Shown one piece after another: positions 13,090 to 23,399 of a DNA stretch of 64,000 nt. The DNA is from Gallaecimonas sp. GXIMD4217 (lineage in GTDB: Bacteria > Pseudomonadota > Gammaproteobacteria > Enterobacterales > Gallaecimonadaceae): NCBI RefSeq assembly GCF_038087665.1, contig NZ_CP149925.1, forward strand, positions 1,205,455-1,269,454. Reading direction: 5' to 3'. Numbering within the stretch: the first letter of the stretch is position 1; each line of letters opens with the position of its first letter. Position numbers and translations under genes: made by a program. Below the pieces are notes generated by a model. It searched no databases. It saw nothing but the letters and a program-made list of their open reading frames with translations, and was not told the DNA's origin.

Positions 13090-13098
13090 GGCAGCGGT

Positions 13099-13128
13099 GT
13101 AGGGTGGGCGAAGCGTAACCCACCGAAT
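13099..13128. repeat. interspersed palindromic repeat, first copy (short variant)
   Basis: GTAGGGTGGGCGAAGCGTAACCCACC is a shortened form of the element at 13487 and 21768. The arms GGTGGG and CCCACC pair around a GC-rich loop. It lies just after the XRE gene. Confidence 0.6.
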
Positions 13129-13195
13129 ACCTTCATTTTTCTGGCCGAGGTGGTGGGTTCATGCTGATCTCTTCGAGTTGCGCTGCCGCGCGGCC

Positions 13196-13223
13196 CTACT
13201 TTCTGTAAAGCGACAGAAAGTAG
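13196..13223. repeat. 11-bp inverted repeat at the left edge of the duplication
   Basis: CTACTTTCTGT and ACAGAAAGTAG flank AAAGCG, forming a perfect 11-bp stem. The second copy of the duplicated block (21484) lacks the left arm, so copy 2 is truncated here at a junction with a 29-bp palindromic unit. Confidence 0.6.
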
Positions 13224-13786
13224 GCAAAGAGCGCTCCCCCTAATCGCATCCAGCTCGCAGACAAGCTGCTCGCGTTCGCCAGCTAAAATGGGGCCACCGG
13301 CCCCATTTCTTAACGCGCTCACCCCTTCGGGTTCCCACGGTTCCATTCTCTTACCGCTGTACGTCACTGACGCGGTTCCCTCCGCGCAGTGACTCCCTCG
13401 GCGTCCTGCCTCGGTCCAGCTCACGCTCACTTCACCTCGGCTGCTCATAAGGGGCCAGACTTGGCCGCCTTGCGGCCATCAGCAGTGTAGGGTGGGTTAG
13501 CGAAGCGTAACCCACCGAATTCCCAAGATAGTCATCTGATAAGCCTGAGTTGTTAGCCATCTGTGGCGGCTCATTCCGGCCATTAGGCGGTGGTTGCATT
13601 GCACCGCCCAGGCACTTAATCTGGTGCTAATTCAGGGACGAGACCATAACCCGCCAGGGTGATATTGCAAGGATGCGATTACGCCGCAAATCCGTATCTC
13701 CATCCAATGATATCCCTTCCCGGCCTAGCATTACGCTCGTCTTGTCCCAGGCGTATGTGAAAACCTGAATAAATGGGTTCTGACCC
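13203..13786 (+). repeat. 584-bp direct repeat, copy R1
   Basis: This block matches 21484-22067 over 584 bases without indels and with only scattered substitutions. It carries no convincing gene. It contains a 10-bp-stem hairpin (13286-13308, arms AAATGGGGCC and GGCCCCATTT), the palindrome at 13487-13520 and, at its right end, the first part of the 29-bp near-palindromic unit. R1 leads directly into Rhs tip 1. Confidence 0.85.
13487..13520. repeat. interspersed palindromic repeat, second copy
   Basis: GTAGGGTGGGTTA and TAACCCACC form a 9-bp stem around GCGAAGCG. It recurs at 21768-21801 inside R2 and as a short variant at 13099. Similar sequences are dispersed in many proteobacteria. Confidence 0.65.
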
Positions 13787-13795
13787 CTTTTATTT
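13766..13795. repeat. 29-bp near-palindromic REP-like unit
   Basis: GAATAAATGGGTTCTGACCC followed by CTTTTATT reads almost the same on the other strand. Intact or split copies occur near 16509-16528, 17861-17880, 18965-18984, 21409-21425, 21455-21482, 22047-22067 and 23400-23420, with a shorter relative at 23432. The central GGTTCTGACCC is the target of every IS4 copy in the window. Here the unit supplies the ATG (13773) that opens the Rhs tip 1 frame. Confidence 0.7.
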
Positions 13796-14423
13796 TCGTA
13801 ACGACACCTTCAGTCGTTCCGTCCTCAATATTGGCATTGGCCAAGTCAACATTGGCTTCCCCGGCCAATATTGGGACAAGGAAAGCGCCACCTGGCAGAA
13901 CTGGCATAGGGATTATGATGCAGCAACAGGACGGTATGTTCAGAGTGACCCGATTGGATTATCTGGTGGAATTAATACATACACTTATGTAGGTGGGAAT
14001 CCTGTGATGGGGGTTGACCCTGAAGGGTTGATGTGTTTTGACTTTAATAAATTTGCCGATCAGATAAGGGATAATCGCTCAAATACAGTAACAGACCTTG
14101 CGGCACTAGGGAGTACACTTGGACTTGGGACTATGGCTAAAACAAGTTCTGAATTGAGAGGGCTTGGAGTATCAAAATCCCAATTAAACCCCTACACGAG
14201 TCAATTAAGCCGATGGAATGGCCGATTAAATAGAGGCGGTTTGTACTCCGGAAGAGGTCTCAGAACCTTAGGACGTACCCCTACTGGTATGATGGCAGGC
14301 ACTGTTGCAACAGGAGCCTTGATAGCTGATGGGTTTTACAACTGGGGTGTTATCCTGAAAGCTGCCTTTGATGCAACATCTTCGGAAGGTGATAATGGCT
14401 GTGGATGTGATAACAATGGATAA
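13773..14423 (+). pseudogene. orphan Rhs tip 1: end of Rhs core plus variable toxin-like C-terminus
   Basis: A 216-residue frame. After a few residues read from the palindromic unit, residues 10-90 match the end of an Rhs core: [30 protein letters not shown] and NTYTYVGGNP, ending in VDPEGL, where Rhs variable tips begin. The remaining 125 residues (Gly-rich, one hydrophobic stretch, C-terminal GCGC) are AT-rich and not recognised. The large core is absent, so this is a displaced rhs 3' end rather than a whole gene. An apparent immunity gene overlaps its end. The unit-derived ATG could allow expression, but the ribosome binding site is unconvincing. Confidence 0.75.
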
Positions 14424-14730
14424 CTTAGAGTCAAAAATAAAACAAAAGTCGATTGAGCGATTGGCAGCTTTGTTGGATGTAGATGCATCAACTCTCAGCG
14501 AGGAAATGAGTCTTGCGACTGCGGTTAAGCCGAATCCTGTAAAGTTTTGGAAACGAAATCAATTTGATAAGATTCTTGATGATATAAGGGATGTAGCAGA
14601 TAAGGAGTCAACCAAGCTTCTTGAAAGCGGTGATTTTGAGGTGAAAACAGTGCAAGACTATGTCAATTTCATGATTCGGTGCTATGAAGAAAATCCAAAA
14701 CTTGTCCTTTTGGTTTTGGGTGACTTGTAA
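14395..14730 (+). CDS. putative immunity protein for Rhs tip 1
   Basis: A 111-residue acidic protein with no signal peptide or membrane segment, AT-rich like the tip before it. The ATG at 14395 is chosen because GGAAGG lies 5 bases upstream; an ATG at 14416 is an alternative. It overlaps the tip 1 end by 29 bases, the arrangement expected for an Rhs toxin/immunity pair. The sequence (for example NQFDKILDDIRDVADKES) is helical and matches no family I recognise. Immunity function is inferred from position only. Confidence 0.6.
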   Translation: MAVDVITMDNLESKIKQKSIERLAALLDVDASTLSEEMSLATAVKPNPVKFWKRNQFDKILDDIRDVADKESTKLLESGDFEVKTVQDYVNFMIRCYEENPKLVLLVLGDL

Positions 14731-14870
14731 TTTAAAGCTTTTGGTTTTAATATGAAGCGCCATCATCTGATGGTGCTTTTTCATTCCATGCCCAATCGAG
14801 TGTATGGTTCATCCATGGGGAATCACTTTCTGCCTTCATAGATGAGATTGAGACCGGGAATAAAAGAGGC
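14731..14870. other. short non-coding stretch between immunity gene and IS remnant
   Basis: About 140 AT-rich bases. A hairpin (GCGCCATCATCTGATGGTGC at 14756-14775) followed by TTTTTCATT could terminate the tip 1/immunity transcript. Nothing else is recognised. Confidence 0.4.
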
Positions 14871-15038
14871 TGAGGGATCCCCACAAAGTTAATTCCATGC
14901 CTGCTTGCAGCTTGTTGCATGTAGCAGTTCGCGGTAGCAGGCAAGGACTTTTTTCCACTGCCTTTTCGTGAATTTGAGACCCTTGCTGACGGCTCGAAGC
15001 CCTAGGGTATGGAAGGGCAACACGCGTTTGCTCTTCAC
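14871..15038 (-). mobile_element. remnant of the IS4-family element, right end only, inverted
   Basis: The reverse complement matches the last 168 bases of the IS4 copies at 16529, 18985 and 22068, including the terminal TGAGGGATCCCCAC and the transposase C-terminus, with substitutions and small differences. It stops abruptly where the Rhs core fragment begins. It is older than the three long copies, judging by its greater divergence. Confidence 0.8.
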
Positions 15039-15280
15039 TTCGTACCTTTAGCGGCGGCGGCCAGTCCTACGAGAACTGGTATGACGCCCGTAACCTGCGC
15101 GTCGCCAAGAAGGCGCCCACCTATGAAACGAATTTCATATACGGGCAAGGAGGTGAATTGCTTACAGAAACGCGTGCTGGAAGTCGCTACAAGAGCTATG
15201 TCTGGCTGGACGGCGAGATCGTCGGCCTGATCCACAACGGCCAGCTCTATTACGTGCACAGCGACCACCTTGGTCGCCCG
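15039..15280 (+). pseudogene. Rhs core fragment, 5' truncated
   Basis: The frame through 15041 encodes about 80 residues of Rhs/YD-repeat core, including YENWYDARNLRVAKK, SYVWLDGEIVGLIHNG and the conserved YVHSDHLGRP. The 5' side is cut by the IS4 remnant. The 3' side runs into a 29-bp palindromic unit, into which an ISAs1-family element has inserted. The continuation of this core, [11 protein letters not shown] onward, is found inverted at 18968-18333. Confidence 0.85.
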
Positions 15281-15287
15281 AATAAAA

Positions 15288-16508
15288 GCAGGGCCGGATT
15301 ATGCTTTGTTAAATCCATTAACCAAAGAACAGTTCTGACCTGAACTTCCCGTTCCAGGCCGCCTTCCGCCGCTTGCTCGGCTTGCTGACCTGCAGTGGGT
15401 GCTGCTGGAGCAGGTTCAGCACGATCCGTCGTAGCAACGCCATCTTCTTGGCATTCTCCCGGTCGCCTATCCGGCTGCAGTCTTCCCTGAAGGTCACATC
15501 CAGCACCCAATGCTGCTGGTTCTCGATATGCCAGTGCTGGCGGATCCCGTCTGACACAAACGCTGGGTCGATATCCAATGAACTCAGGTAGTAATGGGTG
15601 TCGATGCTCGTCCGTCCCTGGTGGCTGCGCTCCCGCTCCATCGCGATAACGGACTTCGCCGACGGCCACTTCTTCGCCAGCTCTTTGGACAGTGTGGCCG
15701 GCAACTGGAACACCGTCCGCCGCTCCTGCCGGCCATGGCCTTGTTCCGTTTGCTCATGCTGGGGGAGTCCCGCTGCACCGCTATCCCAATGGGGCTGGAA
15801 GATCCCTTCTATGGCCTCACGCAAGGTCGGCTGGTTGCCTTTGACCTGGACGATGTAGTCGCCCTTACGCTTGCTGATCTGGTGCAGTGTTTCCCTGTTG
15901 CAATGCAGGGCATCAAAGGTCAGCACAGCGTCGCGGATATCCAGCATGGTCAGCAGCTCTCGCACCGCTACCAACTCTCCTCCTTTGGTTGCCGTGGCTT
16001 GCTGGAACAGGGTGACACCCTGCTCGCTATCGAAGGCCGAGACCAGGTGCAGCGCTTGCTCTTTACCTTGTTGATTGACCGCCCCACGCAGGGTCTTGCC
16101 ATCAATGGCGATGAGCTGGCGGCCATTGGCTTGGCGCAAGTGATTGACCCAGCTAAACAGGGCCAGTACCAGGCATTGTGCATCCACGGCCTTGATGATG
16201 CGGGCGATGGAATGGCGGGTGGGGATCCCCGCTTCAAATGACCGGTGTTGGCGGAGCCAATCCAGGTGCTCATGGCCGAACTCTTCGATATCAAGCCAGC
16301 CTTCACAGCCAGAGGCCATGGCAGACATCACCAAGAAGATGACATCGACGAGGTTGTGTTGGCGGTTGATGGGGGAGCGGGTATCTTCGATGAGGGTCAA
16401 GTGGTCAAACAGGGACATGGGAGTGGAGCCGGCAGAGTAACATGGCGGATCGGATCACGCCCAAGCGAGATAGTTCCCTGCCGTTAACAAAGCATAATCC
16501 GGCCCTGC
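15288..16508 (-). mobile_element. complete ISAs1-family insertion sequence, 1221 bp
   Basis: Perfect 25-bp terminal inverted repeats run from 15288-15312 (GCAGGGCCGGATTATGCTTT and on) and 16484-16508. An 8-bp target duplication, GAATAAAA, stands at 15280-15287 and 16509-16516. The element landed inside a 29-bp palindromic unit next to the Rhs core. It carries one intact transposase gene. Confidence 0.92.
15318..16418 (-). CDS. ISAs1-family transposase
   Basis: A 366-residue DDE transposase of the ISAs1/H-repeat group. The family N-terminus DHLTLIEDTRSPINRQHNLV, the first catalytic region IAIDGKTLRGA, the second region FDALHCNRET and the late HWHIENQQHWVLDVTFREDC segment with the Glu are all present, so the catalytic triad looks complete. 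Length is normal for the family. The gene fills the element between the inverted repeats, so the element may still be active. Confidence 0.92.
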   Translation of the reverse strand: MSLFDHLTLIEDTRSPINRQHNLVDVIFLVMSAMASGCEGWLDIEEFGHEHLDWLRQHRSFEAGIPTRHSIARIIKAVDAQCLVLALFSWVNHLRQANGRQLIAIDGKTLRGAVNQQGKEQALHLVSAFDSEQGVTLFQQATATKGGELVAVRELLTMLDIRDAVLTFDALHCNRETLHQISKRKGDYIVQVKGNQPTLREAIEGIFQPHWDSGAAGLPQHEQTEQGHGRQERRTVFQLPATLSKELAKKWPSAKSVIAMERERSHQGRTSIDTHYYLSSLDIDPAFVSDGIRQHWHIENQQHWVLDVTFREDCSRIGDRENAKKMALLRRIVLNLLQQHPLQVSKPSKRRKAAWNGKFRSELFFG

Positions 16509-16528
16509 GAATAAAAGGGGTCAGAACC
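16509..16528. repeat. half of a palindromic unit at the left of IS4 copy A
   Basis: GAATAAAAGGGGTCAGAACC is the exact reverse complement of the 20 bases at 17861-17880 to the right of IS4 copy A. The copy is therefore flanked by inverted, not direct, copies of its target. Confidence 0.75.
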
Positions 16529-17860
16529 TGAGGCATCCCCACGAATAGTCTTTTAATTTCAGCTGGTTATCAATAATAGCGGGAACATTCATGGCGTTTG
16601 GTGATCAGATCAATCGCCAAAAATCACTAACCAAAAAACGCCATGAGTGTACGCACTATCTTGACCAACATCGTGACGCTTGTCACACCCAAAATGCACA
16701 AAACTCGCCGAAATGCCGTGATGGACTGTGTGTTGAGCCTGGCCGGTGGCAGCGCGGCAACGGTGACCAGCATCGGTCGCGGCATCGAGTCAAAAGCCTT
16801 CGAAAAACACAACATCAAGCGCGCCGATCGGCTGCTTTCAAATTCCCACTTGCAGCGAGAACAGCTGGTTGTCTATGCCGCCATCTGCCGGCTTTTCTGC
16901 TGTACCAAGCGCCCCGTGATCGCCGTCGATTGGTCGGATCTGGATAGGGTCAAAGGCCACTTCCTGCTGCGGGCGGCCATGACGCTGAATGGTCGCCCCA
17001 TCACCCTCTACCAGGAAGTGCATCCGCTTAGCACCAAAGAGAAACCCGCCGTACATGTGCGTTTTCTGGCCATCCTGTCGGCCATGCTGCCACCGGGTTG
17101 CCAGCCCATTATCGTCACCGATGCCGGCTTCAAGTCTCCCTGGTTCAGGCAGGTCGAGGCGCTTGGATGGCATTTTGTCGGGCGCGTTCGCAAACCCAAT
17201 TTCTACTCACTTGACCAAGGTGACACCTGGCAGTGCATCAGCCACCTTTATGGCCAGGCTTCACAACGTCCCAAGTGATGCGATGGTCTGCTGGCCCGCT
17301 ACAAGCCGTTCGCCTGCACCCTGACCCTATACAGGCAAAAAGGCAAAGGCCGGCAATCACTCACCCCGGATGGCAGTAAACAGCGGGCCGGACAGTCAAT
17401 CAAGCATGCCCAAGGCGCCAAGGAGCCTTGGCTGCTGGCGTCCAACCTGCCGAAAGCCCGTCACCACAGCAAGCAGGTCGTCGCCATCTACCGGCAGCGC
17501 ATGCAAATTGAAGAAGGCTTCCGGGACATGAAGTCTGCCCAACTCGGATTGGGCTTCGAGAACAGCAGAAGCACCAAGCCTGCTCGCATCTGTATCCTGC
17601 TGTTGCTCTCGACCCTGGCCTCGCTGGTGTTGGTGCTGCTCGGACTCACCATGACGGTAGGCAACCAGCACGGCCGCTTCCAGGCCAATACGGTGAAGAG
17701 CAAACGCGTGTTGTCTTTCCATACCCTGGGGCTTCGAGCCGTCAGCAAGCGCCTCAAGTTCACGAAAAGGCAGTGGCAAAAGGCCCTTGCTCACTACCGC
17801 GAGCTGCTACATGCAACAAGCTGTGAGCAGGCATGGAATTAATTTCGTGGGGATCCCTCA
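16529..17860 (+). mobile_element. IS4-family insertion sequence, copy A, 1332 bp
   Basis: Ends are TGAGGCATCCCCAC and GTGGGGATCCCTCA, a 14-bp inverted repeat with one mismatch. Its length equals copy C exactly. The transposase gene has a nonsense mutation. Flanking target sequence is inverted rather than directly repeated, unlike copies B and C. Confidence 0.9.
16643..17842 (+). pseudogene. IS4-family transposase, copy A, internal stop
   Basis: Nearly identical to the 399-residue transposase at 22182-23381. A CGA to TGA change gives a stop at 17276-17278 (after QASQRPK), splitting the protein before the catalytic Glu. The later part keeps the IS4 signature YRQRMQIEEGFRDMK (Y-2-R-3-E-6-K). 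The copy is probably inactive on its own, but its ends could be mobilised by the intact copy C. Confidence 0.9.
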
Positions 17861-17889: not shown

Positions 17890-18348
17890 TTAATTTTCAT
17901 TAACAATGAAAATTACGCTTTCTTTTGTTTCAACAATGTTTTCATTAAGAAAGCAGTAGCCGCTCACACTATCACTTGCATTGCAAGCCCATTCATCATT
18001 CTCCTTTGGGATGATGTGGGCAGCGAATGACTTCTTTTTATCCTTGCAAAATATGTAGGCTTGATCGGATTTAAAATCAGCTGTTATCCAGAAAAATAAG
18101 GCAGCAAAGTCTGAACGCCCATGCTGATAATATAAATCTTTTACGCTGCTGGCTGGTGAGATGATGTATTGACAGTCAAACAGTTCGCCAATCACTTCAT
18201 GATCAAAACCTTTTGTCGAGAGGACTGCCTCTTGGATATAAGAAAAGAATCTGTAGTTATACGAAAAAAGAACAATTAAAGATGAAATAATGAATAAAGT
18301 GGGTGCAACGACCCACCTAAGAATTTTCTTACTTATATTGCAGCGCAT
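17890..18348 (-). CDS. putative immunity protein for Rhs tip 2
   Basis: A 152-residue AT-rich protein with one N-terminal membrane segment (about residues 12-30, [18 protein letters not shown]) and a periplasm-facing remainder containing several Cys (DCQYI, CKDKK, WACN, YCFLN). The start overlaps the end of Rhs tip 2 by 16 bases. A membrane-anchored immunity protein would suit a toxin acting at the membrane or in the periplasm, and tip 2 ends in a hydrophobic stretch. Function is inferred from position. No family is recognised. Confidence 0.6.
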
Positions 18349-18968
18349 ACACCAGCTCCAACCAAAAGAATAAGAGATGCAAATCCAGTGGCTCCCCCAA
18401 AGTTTGACATTGTTGCTTCTTCCATCCCTTCAACGGTCAATTCATCAATTTCGCTGTTAACTTTACCAAGCTCTATTGCACACTGCACTTTTTCTGCATT
18501 GCTATCGCTTTCATTGTATTTGTTAATAAGGCTTTCACGTTTCTGTAGTAGTGCTTGCATAGTTGGACTATTAATATGGCTTTTTATCTCTTCGCTAGCT
18601 TTTCCTACCCCAGCCCAACCCAACAAGTAGTCAAGACCACCTAATCCACCAACGGTAGCTAAGCAAAGTCCTATTTGTCCAGTAGGGTCAATTCGAAGTA
18701 GGGGATTATTTCCAACATACGTGTAAGTGTTGAGCCCTCCATTAAGTCCAATAGGATCACTCTGAACATACCGTCCTGTTGCTGCATCATAATCCCTATG
18801 CCAGTTCTGCCAGGTGGCGCTTTCCTTGTCCCAATATTGGCAGGGGAAGCCAATGTTGACTTGGCCAATGCCAATATTGAGGACGGAACGACTGAAGGTG
18901 TCGTTACGTGCTTCCCACACCACAGTCTGGCTTTGGTTGGTGACCTGCTCCGGGCGACCAAGGTGAAT
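18333..18968 (-). pseudogene. Rhs tip 2: end of core plus variable toxin-like C-terminus, separated from its core
   Basis: From [20 protein letters not shown] the frame reads the last part of an Rhs core ([46 protein letters not shown]) almost identical to tip 1 up to YVGNN, then diverges. The variable part of about 120 residues has a Lys/Glu-rich helical centre and a hydrophobic C-terminus ([14 protein letters not shown]). The present open frame starts inside IS4 copy B. The missing upstream core is at 15039-15280 on the other strand, so the gene was split by rearrangement. Confidence 0.78.
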
Positions 18969-18984
18969 AAATGGGTTCTGACCC
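18965..18984. repeat. half of a palindromic unit at the left of IS4 copy B
   Basis: GAATAAATGGGTTCTGACCC directly precedes the element. Its last 11 bases (18974-18984) are the left target duplication of copy B, matching 21409-21419. Confidence 0.75.
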
Positions 18985-19791
18985 TGAGGCATCCCCACAA
19001 ATAGTCTTTTAATTTCAGCTGGTTATCAATAATGGCGGGAACATTCATGGCGTTTGGTGATCAGATCAATCGCCAAAAATCACTAACCAAAAAACGCCAT
19101 GAATGTACGCACTATCTTGACCAACATCGTGACGCTTGTCACACCCAAAATGCACAAAACTCGCCGAAAGGCCGTGATGGACTGTGTGTTGAGCCTGGCC
19201 GGTGGCAGCGCTGCCACGGTGACCAGCATCGGTCGCGGCATCGAGTCAAAAGCCTTCGAAAAACACAACATCAAGCGCGCCGATCGGCTGCTTTCAAATT
19301 CCCACTTGCAGCGAGAACAGCTGGTTGTCTATGCCGCCATCTGCCGGCTTTTCTGCTGTACCAAGCGCCCCGTGATCGCCGTCGATTGGTCGGATCTGGA
19401 TAGGGTCAAAGGCCACTTCCTGCTGCGGGCGGCCATGACGCTGGATGGTCGCCCCATCACCCTCTACCAGGAAGTGCATCCGCTTAGCACCAAAGAGAAA
19501 CCCGCCGTGCATGCGCGTTTTCTGTCCATCCTGTCGGCCATGCTGCCACCGGGTTGCCAGCCCATTATCGTCACCGATGCCGGCTTCAAGTCTCCCTGGT
19601 TCAGGCAGGTCGAGGCGCTTGGATGGCATTTTGTCGGGCGCGTTCGCAAACCCAATTTCTACTCACTTGACCAAGGCGACACCTGGCAGTGCATCAGCCA
19701 CCTCTATGGCCAGGCTTCACAACGTCCCAAGCGATGCGATGGTCTGCTGGCCCGCTACAAGCCGTTCGCCTGCACCCTGACCCTGTACAGG

Positions 19792-20874
19792 GGCCTTGTT
19801 GACCAAATCGATGGAACTTAGTCGGAGCCGGGCGATCAGATCGGCCAATCCCAGCCGTAGAAGACAACCGCCATGGCCATGAAAGCCGCTCAAAGCAAGA
19901 ACAAGAAGCCCAAGGCCAAGTACCGGGTCCGTAACTGGTCCCAATACAACGAAGCGCTGGTCAAGCGCGGCTCCCTGACCTTCTGGCTGGACGAGGCGGC
20001 CATCCGCAGCTGGCATAGCACCCAGCCCAACGGCAAGCGGGGCCGGGACCTGCATTACAGCGACCAAGCCATCACCACCGCACTGATGATCCAAGCAGTC
20101 TTCGGCTTGAGCCTGCGGGCGACGGAGGGCTTCATCAATTCGCTGTTCGAGTTGATGGGCCTGGAGCTCAGTTCGCCGGACTACAGCAGCATCAGCAAGC
20201 GGGCCAAGACGGTGACAGTGGATATCCGTCGCCCCAAGGGCCCGGTAGCGCACCTGGTGTTCGACGCCACCGGCCTCAAGGTCTACGGCGAAGGCGAATG
20301 GAAGGTGCGCAAGCACGGCAAGGAGAAACGCCGCAGCTGGCGTAAGCTGCACCTGGGTGTGGACGGCCAGGGTCACTGGCTCATCTGCGCCGAGCTGTCC
20401 TTGGACAATGTGGCCGACGGCCAGGTCCTAGCCCCTATGCTCAGGCCACTGCGCCGCCAGATAGGCAGCGTCTACGCTGACGGCGCCTACGACAGCCGGC
20501 AATGCTACGAGGAAATCGCCCACAAAAGCGCCCGCCCGCTCATACCGCCGCGAAGCAATGCCGGTTATTGGCAGGCAGGGCATCCCCGCAACGAGGCGGT
20601 GGCGGCACTCAAGGCCGGGGAGCTGGCAGAATGGAAGGTGGCGAGCGGCTACCACCGCCGCTCGATAGGGGAGACGGCGATGTGGCGGTTCAAGCAACTG
20701 ACCGGCAACCGGCTACGACTGCGCGACTATAACGGCCAGGTTGGCGAGGCAATGGCCCGGGTTGCGGTGTTGAACAAAATGACGGCCTTGGGCATGCCGG
20801 TCAGTGACATGGTGCGCTGACCCCGGACGGTGTTGGGGCCCACTGGCCTTGGGGCTGAATTGATCAACAAGGCC
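19792..20874 (+). mobile_element. IS5-family (IS903-like) insertion sequence, 1083 bp, nested in IS4 copy B
   Basis: Terminal inverted repeats begin GGCCTTGTTGA[C/T]CAA at both ends (18 bp with two mismatches). A 9-bp target duplication CTGTACAGG stands at 19783-19791 and 20875-20883, the duplication length of the IS903 group. The element contains one intact transposase gene and is the youngest insertion in this stack. Confidence 0.93.
19873..20820 (+). CDS. IS5-family (IS903 group) transposase
   Basis: A 315-residue DDE transposase. The N-terminal YRVRNWSQYNEALVKRGSLT, the first catalytic Asp in FDATGLKVYGEGEWK, the second in YADGAYDSRQCYE and the Glu in RRSIGETAMWRFKQLTG are all present, so the enzyme looks functional. 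Two ATGs (19873 and 19879) are possible starts. Length matches IS903-type transposases. Confidence 0.93.
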   Translation: MAMKAAQSKNKKPKAKYRVRNWSQYNEALVKRGSLTFWLDEAAIRSWHSTQPNGKRGRDLHYSDQAITTALMIQAVFGLSLRATEGFINSLFELMGLELSSPDYSSISKRAKTVTVDIRRPKGPVAHLVFDATGLKVYGEGEWKVRKHGKEKRRSWRKLHLGVDGQGHWLICAELSLDNVADGQVLAPMLRPLRRQIGSVYADGAYDSRQCYEEIAHKSARPLIPPRSNAGYWQAGHPRNEAVAALKAGELAEWKVASGYHRRSIGETAMWRFKQLTGNRLRLRDYNGQVGEAMARVAVLNKMTALGMPVSDMVR

Positions 20875-21425
20875 CTGTACAGGCAAAAAGGCAAAGGCCG
20901 GCAATCACTCAACCCGGATGGCAGTAAACAGCGGGCCGGACAGTCAATCAAGCATGCCCAAGGCGCCAAGGAGCCTTGGCTGCTGGCGTCCAACCTGCCG
21001 AAAGCCCGTCACCATAGCAAGCAGGTCGTCGCCATCTATAGGCAGCGCATGCAAATTGAAGAAGGCTTCCGGGACATGAAGTCTGCCCAACTCGGATTGG
21101 GCTTCGAGAACAGCAGAAGCACCAAGCCTGCTCGCATCAGCATCCTGCTGTTGCTCTCGACCCTGGCCTCGCTGGTGTTGGTGCTGCTCGGACTCACCAT
21201 GACGGTAGGCAATCAGCACGGCCGCTTCCAGGCCAACACGGTGAAGAAAAAACGCGCGTTGTCTTTCCATACCCTGGGACTTCGAGCCGTCAGCAAGGGC
21301 CTCAAATTCACGAAAAGGCAGTGGCAAAAAGCCCTCGTTCGCTACCGCGAGCTGCTACATGCAACAAGCTACGAGCAGGCATGGAATTAATTTTGTGGGG
21401 ATCCCTCAGGTTCTGACCCCTTTTA

Positions 21426-21483: not shown

Positions 21484-22067
21484 CTGTAAAGCGACAGAAA
21501 GTAGGCAAAGAGCGCTCCCCCTAATCGCATCCAGCTCGCAGACAAGCTGCTCGCGTTCGCCAGCTAAAATGGGGCCACCGGCCCCATTTCTTAACGCGCT
21601 CACCCCTTCGGGTTCCCTCGGTTCCGTTCGCTTACCGCTGTACGTCACTGACGCGGTTCCCTCCGCGCAGTGACTCCCTCGGCGTCCTGCCTCGGTCCAG
21701 CTCACGCTCACTTCACCTCGGCTGCTCATAAGGGGCCAGACTTGGCCGCCTTGCGGCCATCAGCAGTGTAGGGTGGGTTAGCGAAGCGTAACCCACCGAA
21801 TACCCAAGATAGTCATCTGACAAGCCTGAGTTGCTAGCCATCTGTGGCGGCTCATTCCGGCCATTAGGCGATGGTTGCATTGCACCGCCCAGGCACTTAA
21901 TCTGGTGCTAATTCAGGGACGAGACCATAACCCGCCAGGGTGATATTGCAAAGATGCGATTACGCTGCAAATCCGTATCTCCATCCAATGATATCCCTTC
22001 CCGGCCTAGCATTACGCTCGTCTTGTCCCAGGCGTATGTGAAAACCTGAACAAATGGGTTCTGACCC
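21484..22067 (+). repeat. 584-bp direct repeat, copy R2
   Basis: Aligns with R1 at a constant offset of 8281 bases with few substitutions. Its left edge lacks the first inverted-repeat arm present in R1. Its right end was entered by IS4 copy C exactly at the central target of the 29-bp unit. It includes the palindrome at 21768-21801 and a hairpin at 21567-21589. No gene is recognised. Confidence 0.85.
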
Positions 22068-23399
22068 TGAGGCATCCCCACGAATAGTCTTTTAATTTCA
22101 GCTGGTTATCAATAATGGCGGGAACATTCATGGCGTTTGGTGATCAGATCAATCGCCAAAAATCACTAACCAAAAAACGCCATGAATGTACGCACTATCT
22201 TGACCAACATCGTGACGCTTGTCACACCCAAAATGCACAAAACTCGCCGAAAGGCAGTGATGGACTGTGTGTTGAGCCTGGCCGGTGGCAGCGCTGCCAC
22301 GGTGACCAGCATCGGTCGCGGCATCGAGTCGAAAGCCTTCGAGAAACACAACATCAAGCGCGCCGATCGGCTGCTTTCAAATTCCCACTTGCAGCGAGAA
22401 CAGCTGGTTGTTTATGCCGCCATCTGCCGGCTTTTCTGCTGTACCAAGCGCCCCGTGATCGCCGTCGATTGGTCGGATCTGGATAGGGTCAAAGGCCACT
22501 TCCTGCTGCGGGCGGCCATGACGCTGGATGGTCGCCCCATCACCCTCTACCAGGAAGTGCATCCGCTTAGCACCAAAGAGAAACCCGCCGTGCATGCGCG
22601 TTTTCTGTCCATCCTGTCGGCCATGCTGCCACCGGGTTGCCAGCCCATTATCGTCACCGATGCCGGCTTCAAGTCTCCCTGGTTCAGGCAGGTCGAGGCG
22701 CTTGGATGGCATTTTGTCGGGCGCGTTCGCAAACCCAATTTCTACTCACTTGACCAAGGCGACACCTGGCAGTGCATCAGCCACCTCTATGGCCAGGCTT
22801 CACAACGTCCCAAGCGATGCGATGGTCTGCTGGCCCGCTACAAGCCGTTCGCCTGCACCCTGACCCTGTACAGGCAAAAAGGCAAAGGCCGGCAATCACT
22901 CAACCCGGATGGCAGTAAACAGCGGGCCGGACAGTCAATCAAGCATGCCCAAGGCGCCAAGGAGCCTTGGCTGCTGGCGTCCAACCTGCCGAAAGCCCGT
23001 CACCATAGCAAGCAGGTCGTCGCCATCTATAGGCAGCGCATGCAAATTGAAGAAGGCTTCCGGGACATGAAGTCTGCCCAACTCGGATTGGGCTTCGAGA
23101 ACAGCAGAAGCACCAAGCCTGCTCGCATCAGCATCCTGCTGTTGCTCTCGACCCTGGCCTCGCTGGTGTTGGTGCTGCTCGGACTCACCATGACGGTAGG
23201 CAATCAGCACGGCCGCTTCCAGGCCAACACGGTGAAGAAAAAACGCGCGTTGTCTTTCCATACCCTGGGGCTTCGAGCCGTCAGCAAGGGCCTCAAATTC
23301 ACGAAAAGGCAGTGGCAAAAAGCCCTCGTTCGCTACCGCGAGCTGCTACATGCAACAAGCTACGAGCAGGCATGGAATTAATTTTGTGGGGATCCCTCA
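22068..23399 (+). mobile_element. IS4-family insertion sequence, copy C, complete, 1332 bp
   Basis: Ends are TGAGGCATCCCCAC and GTGGGGATCCCTCA. An 11-bp direct duplication, GGTTCTGACCC, lies at 22057-22067 and 23400-23410. The transposase gene is intact, so this copy is the likely active source. Confidence 0.93.
22182..23381 (+). CDS. IS4-family transposase, intact
   Basis: A 399-residue DDE transposase. Catalytic regions include the first Asp in VIAVDWSDLD, the second Asp in PIIVTDAGFKSPWF, and the IS4 signature YRQRMQIEEGFRDMK, in which Y, R, E and K have the canonical spacing Y-2-R-3-E-6-K. The frame is uninterrupted, unlike copies A (nonsense) and B (insertion). An ATG at 22182 gives a typical length. 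Confidence 0.93.
   Translation: MNVRTILTNIVTLVTPKMHKTRRKAVMDCVLSLAGGSAATVTSIGRGIESKAFEKHNIKRADRLLSNSHLQREQLVVYAAICRLFCCTKRPVIAVDWSDLDRVKGHFLLRAAMTLDGRPITLYQEVHPLSTKEKPAVHARFLSILSAMLPPGCQPIIVTDAGFKSPWFRQVEALGWHFVGRVRKPNFYSLDQGDTWQCISHLYGQASQRPKRCDGLLARYKPFACTLTLYRQKGKGRQSLNPDGSKQRAGQSIKHAQGAKEPWLLASNLPKARHHSKQVVAIYRQRMQIEEGFRDMKSAQLGLGFENSRSTKPARISILLLLSTLASLVLVLLGLTMTVGNQHGRFQANTVKKKRALSFHTLGLRAVSKGLKFTKRQWQKALVRYRELLHATSYEQAWN

Follow-up and report, generated by a model that had tools for sequence, protein, structure and literature searches.

Orphan rhs-CT/rhsI modules, as described in three reports (PMC3967940, PMC7043789, PMC2935791), consist of an Rhs core end terminating in a DPxGL motif, a variable tip and an adjacent immunity gene; they have no delivery part, and the genome also carries a full-length rhs whose core end is homologous. 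According to these reports, Salmonella orphan tips come without translation signals, and recombining with the main rhs activates them, the precedent being 95% identity over 522 bp (PMC3967940); orphan Rhs toxins of Salmonella are also described as being made from internal promoters, with the transcription start of an orphan tip located 89 nt before the PxxxxDPXGL motif (PMC7043789). In REP/RAYT systems (PMC2817692, PMC3686654), a RAYT-family gene lies between two inverted copies of a short palindrome, and REPs are usually present in more than 100 copies (PMC2817692). Certain insertion sequences (ISs), such as ISPpu9, target REPs (PMC1525189, PMC8450116).

The locus of Gallaecimonas sp. GXIMD4217 analysed here lies in a 64,000-nucleotide stretch of DNA, referred to below as the window, and resembles the described orphan modules in its DPxGL core end, variable tip, adjacent presumed immunity gene, lack of a delivery part and homologous core end in the full-length rhs of the same genome. 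Unlike them, it has a tip that starts from a RAYT-type palindrome, neither the tip nor its neighbour has a Pfam or NCBIfam model, and the full-length rhs that was found is not adjacent but lies at a distance of 1.3 Mb. The reading that we favour, with a probability of roughly 0.7, is that of a displaced orphan Rhs tip and its immunity gene, kept as a silent reserve and cut loose at RAYT-type palindromes.

A complete Rhs tip behind a palindromic unit

The orphan frame (13773..14423, forward strand, 216 codons) opens with an ATG (13773-13775) inside a 27-bp palindromic unit, AATAAATGGGTTCTGACCCCTTTTATT (13768..13794), which also carries an in-frame TAA (13770-13772) immediately 5' of this ATG. 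As proposed in an earlier note made from the sequence, the unit-borne ATG is in frame with an Rhs core end and a variable tip, the first residues being MGSDPFYFRND. The core end (13797..14030, forward strand) begins at CGTAACGAC, matches TIGR03696 in a profile scan (residues 24-86, E 2.2e-20) and extends up to DPEGL; from its first position it shares 83.9% DNA identity over 230 bp with the full-length rhs of the genome (L025:4982-9208, 1408 aa). Over 207 nt, this core carries a single unique change with respect to the full-length rhs and a second orphan tip (tip 2, see below), at a third codon position, and thus shows no sign of decay. Directly 5' of the tip lies a non-coding block of 593 bp (13180..13772, forward strand), which consists of repeats, not of an rhs promoter region or other rhs DNA; a second copy, 98% identical, is located at 21484-22053 and extends up to another unit.

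The variable C-terminal tip, presumed to be the toxin domain (14031..14423, forward strand), comprises 130 residues after DPEGL, so that the variable region stands as first described and only its length, previously given as 125 residues, had to be extended slightly. A genome-collection scan found homologues in Shewanella benthica, with a best segment 60% identical, and in Acidovorax radicis (53%); when 398 genomes of the phylum were searched with a profile, two were returned, our own and a new one (G403); a single-sequence search of 295 relatives matched no genome besides our own. Compared with these three homologues the tip is complete: the four-sequence alignment contains 49 invariant columns, among them a CxC motif present at the C-terminus of all four tips, and this shared end speaks against the truncation that had been considered as an objection. 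In A. radicis, the tip forms the end of a 1578-aa Rhs, which, along with the terminal DPEGL of the core, bears out its identification as an Rhs tip. It is carried by a 284-aa core-plus-tip frame in S. benthica, 3' of another Rhs frame and a small gene, and by a short core-plus-tip frame (178 aa) in G403.

The presumed immunity gene (14395..14730, forward strand, 111 aa from its ATG) overlaps the tip by 29 nt. Other possible starts are an upstream TTG (120 aa) and ATG 14416; the Shine-Dalgarno duplex predicted for ATG 14395 (-7.0 kcal/mol) is equalled by 7% of the ATGs in the window and is better than that of ATG 14416. A hairpin with a T-run resembling a terminator follows on the forward strand (14754..14781; -19.0 kcal/mol for the fold of 14736-14795), although a separate scan missed it. 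The suggestion that an overlapping immunity-like gene accompanies the tip gained weight from the comparison, as a homologous small gene lies directly 3' of the tip in all four genomes (our own, S. benthica, A. radicis and G403). Anatomy and conservation thus support the reading of the two genes as an orphan toxin-immunity module.

No known family had been recognized for either protein, and searches of Pfam and NCBIfam, the collections to which this statement refers, yielded nothing above the cut-offs beyond the Rhs core. The best NCBIfam match of the neighbour was TIGR02995 (E 0.003, 16.8 bits vs a cut-off of 190.9), and the remaining Pfam and NCBIfam matches of both proteins had E values of 0.019 or weaker. 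The tip had no match in a PDB sequence search, and no relative of the tip or the neighbour was found in the plasmid search or among the viral contigs searched. The pair seems to belong to a toxin-immunity family that moves between bacteria and for which neither Pfam nor NCBIfam has a model. The predicted structure of the tip was too poor for a fold search (pLDDT 39.3). A membrane helix usually requires a mean hydropathy of 1.6 over 19 residues; the best means in the four homologous tips were 1.1-1.4, leaving a pore-forming activity unsupported.

A possibly carrier-like presumed immunity protein

The AlphaFold2 model of the neighbour, built from three sequences, is all helical (pLDDT 72.6, pTM 0.64). 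A Foldseek search with this model returned no match under E 3, and a PDB sequence search gave 15 matches, none to a carrier protein, the best being an unrelated-looking chain aligned over 24 residues (E 0.003). In a structural second look at the top 95 chains from Foldseek, the best was 7auf (Z 8.1, 80 residues, 3.2 A). Nine of the best 11 rows (Z 8.1 to 3.9, the next row having 3.5) bear titles naming an acyl carrier protein or a complex containing one, a likeness to be read with the warning of the tool that Z values of this level are common for helical bundles; the other two, 8xqw_J and 8xks_R, are chains of an FtsHi motor complex with titles silent on a carrier. Sequence support for the likeness is very weak: the NCBIfam acyl carrier protein model matched one of the four neighbour homologues (E 0.027), and the neighbour profile aligned with Escherichia coli AcpP over 35 columns at 7.9% probability, or 0.5% when forced to full length. 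In this weak 35-column alignment, the column of the AcpP phosphopantetheine serine is occupied by P, F, R and F in the four neighbour proteins, a difference from acyl carrier proteins. Judging from the model, the neighbour possibly folds like a carrier protein but lacks the modification site; that it mimics a carrier, occupying a carrier-binding surface of the toxin, would be speculation with rather long odds.

Palindromic units and a RAYT-type gene

A 19-mer of the unit occurs 14 times in the genome with at most one mismatch, vs 0 occurrences of the reversed pattern, and in none of 294 other relatives, four of which belong to the same genus; the unit is therefore more than a chance sequence. 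All 13 listed copies fall within two rhs islands, at 1.219-1.229 and 3.217-3.226 Mb, and the position of the 14th fits L024:16544, which at 3.2285 Mb is part of the second island. With a 16-mer and two mismatches, 18 places were found, 15 of them in the two rhs islands, compared to 2 for the control. Where the earlier note spoke of a mobile repeat, the unit can now be linked with such an element: a RAYT-type transposase gene of the second island (L024:12825-13565) stands between inverted units with 28-bp arms (96% complementary), and its product scores 51.6 bits against PF01797 (cut-off 23) and 76.1 / 77.6 bits against NF047646, just under the cut-off of 80. The arrangement is that of REP/RAYT systems, unlike which the unit is represented by 14 close copies in two loci and is neither scattered nor high-copy.

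The stretch designated L024 corresponds to 3.212-3.232 Mb of the same genome and has units between its cassettes; besides the RAYT gene, it includes an rhs with an intein-like region, many immunity-like small genes and a gene for a 325-aa Y1-like transposase. Another repeat family, GGGTGGGCGAAGCGTAACCCACC and its variants, is found genome-wide, including window positions 13102-13131, 13494-13523 and 21775-21804, and another RAYT, a high-scoring one (2815573-2816010), has pieces of it on either side.

Insertion sequences and putative breakage at the units

The units are also sites of insertion. Among the copies of a 1332-bp IS with a DDE transposase counted in the window and in L024, all six with two ends lie inside units and are flanked by unit 11-mers, recalling REP-targeting ISs such as ISPpu9 (PMC1525189, PMC8450116), from which the present element differs by its DDE transposase and 11-bp flanking repeats. 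Direct 11-bp repeats border five of the six: the copy at 22068..23399 (forward strand), that at 18985..21408 (forward strand), which is interrupted by a second transposon (~19790-20874), and the three copies of the second island (L024 7731-9062, 13833-15164 and 15213-16544). The sixth (16529..17860, forward strand) has its two flanking 11-mers inverted. A seventh, broken copy survives as an inverted remnant (14871..15038, reverse strand), with an outer flank lacking an intact unit. An element encoding a DDE_Tnp_1 transposase with a DDE_Tnp_1_assoc domain (15288..16508, reverse strand), which we take to be of the ISAs1/H-repeat type, has GAATAAAA on both sides (15280-16516), its point of insertion being a unit edge.

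Tip 2 (18333..18998, reverse strand) is a second orphan Rhs frame, entered by way of an IS end and a unit; a presumed immunity gene (17890..18348, reverse strand, 152 aa) comes after it. The IS with inverted 11-mers (16529-17860) adjoins the tip-2 cassette, an arrangement suggesting that this cassette was inverted between units after the entry of the IS. A separate Rhs core fragment (15039..15280, forward strand), 95% identical to the full-length rhs, ends in HLGRP and runs into a unit, and tip 2 meets a unit at the identical HLGRP site, with 15 bp in common. These junctions, as well as the duplication of the 593-bp block up to a unit, look like traces of breakage at the units.

RAYT genes next to Rhs loci in other genomes

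A RAYT-like gene with GGGGTCAG inverted ends lies directly after the immunity gene in A. radicis (32% identity over 224 aa to the RAYT of our genome). An Rhs core was located within about 8 kb in three of 31 RAYT loci of our own type and in one of 32 high-scoring RAYT loci, in the latter at 3.7 kb, with several of the stretches behind these counts cut by contig ends. Of the 38 rows that score between 97.5 and 67.2 bits, the former set represents 32, the omitted ones being the genome's own, four that were short, broken or differently aligned, and one left out without good reason; the latter represents the 35 rows above 100 bits minus three of the own genome. In the three own-type cases, the RAYT gene follows the rhs frame on the same strand at a distance of under 1 kb and has inverted ends of the GGGGTCAG/GGGGTCGG/GGGGACAG type. 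Inverted ends of these types mark the RAYT-like genes that lie directly 3' of an Rhs tip with its small gene, on the same strand, at L031 6816-7703, L106 7934-8698, L109 7753-8487 and L112 7983-8684.

When 150 RAYT-like rows were matched against 150 Rhs cores, among the matches listed, four of the cores had a RAYT-like gene at most 2.5 kb downstream, on the same strand, and none had one upstream (0.093 expected per side), an asymmetry that is not clean since the upstream space is partly occupied by rhs itself. Two of these four pairs involve the 325-aa transposase type, for which no clear unit-like ends were seen. Within 10 kb, the matches listed, including those of our own genome, place six RAYT genes downstream and one upstream (0.37 expected per side). 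The Poisson probability for the RAYT-Rhs pairs among the matches listed is 2.9e-6, assuming an even spread and 4.1 Mb per genome. A piece of a Y1 gene was present in two of 17 orphan-tip loci, in both cases nearest to the 325-aa type, which weakens the notion that RAYTs are required for tip arrays; a Y1 gene was matched in one of 30 Rhs loci (L171), the same stretch as L189, one of the two orphan-tip loci. No report of an Rhs-RAYT link turned up among the titles and abstract beginnings of the literature matches listed.

The link is worth following, although few loci are covered. A tentative extension of it, which we consider doubtful, is that RAYT-type elements are the engine of Rhs tip displacement and the present orphan tip one of its products. 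RAYT elements would settle directly 3' of tip-immunity cassettes, their palindromes would become borders at which cassettes are inverted, duplicated or cut loose, and ISs homing to the palindromes would add further breaks.

Silent reserve or expressed gene

Under the favoured reading of a silent reserve cassette, an Rhs locus would have been broken and reshuffled at RAYT-type palindromes, which double as landing sites for an IS, and the tip would thereby have lost its delivery part. The toxin would be made and delivered only after recombination with a full-length rhs through the common core end, while the immunity gene, with its own ribosome site, would protect the cell against toxin-carrying kin. 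With 84% identity over 230 bp, below the Salmonella precedent, and a full-length rhs 1.3 Mb away, such recombination may be rare. Moreover, since the orphan frame opens with an ATG, some translation of the tip may occur.

Two other accounts appear about equally unlikely. By analogy with Salmonella, the locus could work as a toxin-antitoxin pair expressed internally, transcribed from a promoter in the core end and translated from 14031 or its vicinity, yielding the tip alone. A promoter-like site at 13892-13919 lies roughly where the Salmonella transcription start is placed (PMC7043789), and ATG 14031 has a moderate Shine-Dalgarno sequence (-4.3 kcal/mol, equalled by 28% of ATGs), but sigma-70-like sites in 13090-15050 are no commoner than in shuffled sequences (2 vs 2.4 expected), and the methionine at 14031 is absent from the three homologues. 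Alternatively, the cassette could be a dead remnant, IS-ridden debris on its way to being lost that looks intact through its youth. The surrounding IS copies, the IS remnant and the duplicated repeats would fit such debris, yet tip and neighbour are complete and free of frameshifts, and the neighbour retains its own ribosome site and terminator-like hairpin.

That the palindrome provides a working start for a 216-aa core-plus-tip protein made from 13773, as the earlier note had proposed for displaced tips in general, is very improbable: the frame is open from the ATG to the stop of the tip and the TAA of the unit ends the upstream frame, but the ATG has no Shine-Dalgarno sequence (duplex of +0.4 kcal/mol, with 89% of the 1914 ATGs in the window equal or better), its AUG is largely paired in the hairpin of the unit (A ~91%, G >99%, U free), and no sigma-70-like site lies 5' of it. 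Nor do other units behave in this way. Of the seven copies without IS interruption and with ATG or TTG at the start position, the one described here is read onward for 216 codons and the other six for 7, 8, 14, 20, 26 and 41. Among 55 orphan-like Rhs frames, including our own, from 22 loci selected for their richness in orphan tips, a start codon of some kind is present at or upstream of the core in 38, ATG comes first in 11, and a strong Shine-Dalgarno sequence occurs in three. Without our own frame, ATG comes first in 10 of 54, and the ATG of the orphan frame was accordingly rejected as a special feature. An in-frame ATG from the unit is by itself a coincidence of about 1 in 3, and nothing marks it as selected; the start codon is probably a coincidence, a by-product of the position of the break.

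Implications for Rhs tip displacement

The tip and its neighbour constitute a candidate toxin-immunity pair for which Pfam and NCBIfam have no model and in which the presumed immunity protein is possibly carrier-protein-like; its target therefore deserves to be identified. The way in which Rhs tips become detached and exchanged is understood only in part. The units described here look like physical break points, with one cassette apparently inverted, one block duplicated and six IS insertions, and would make one route of Rhs tip displacement testable.
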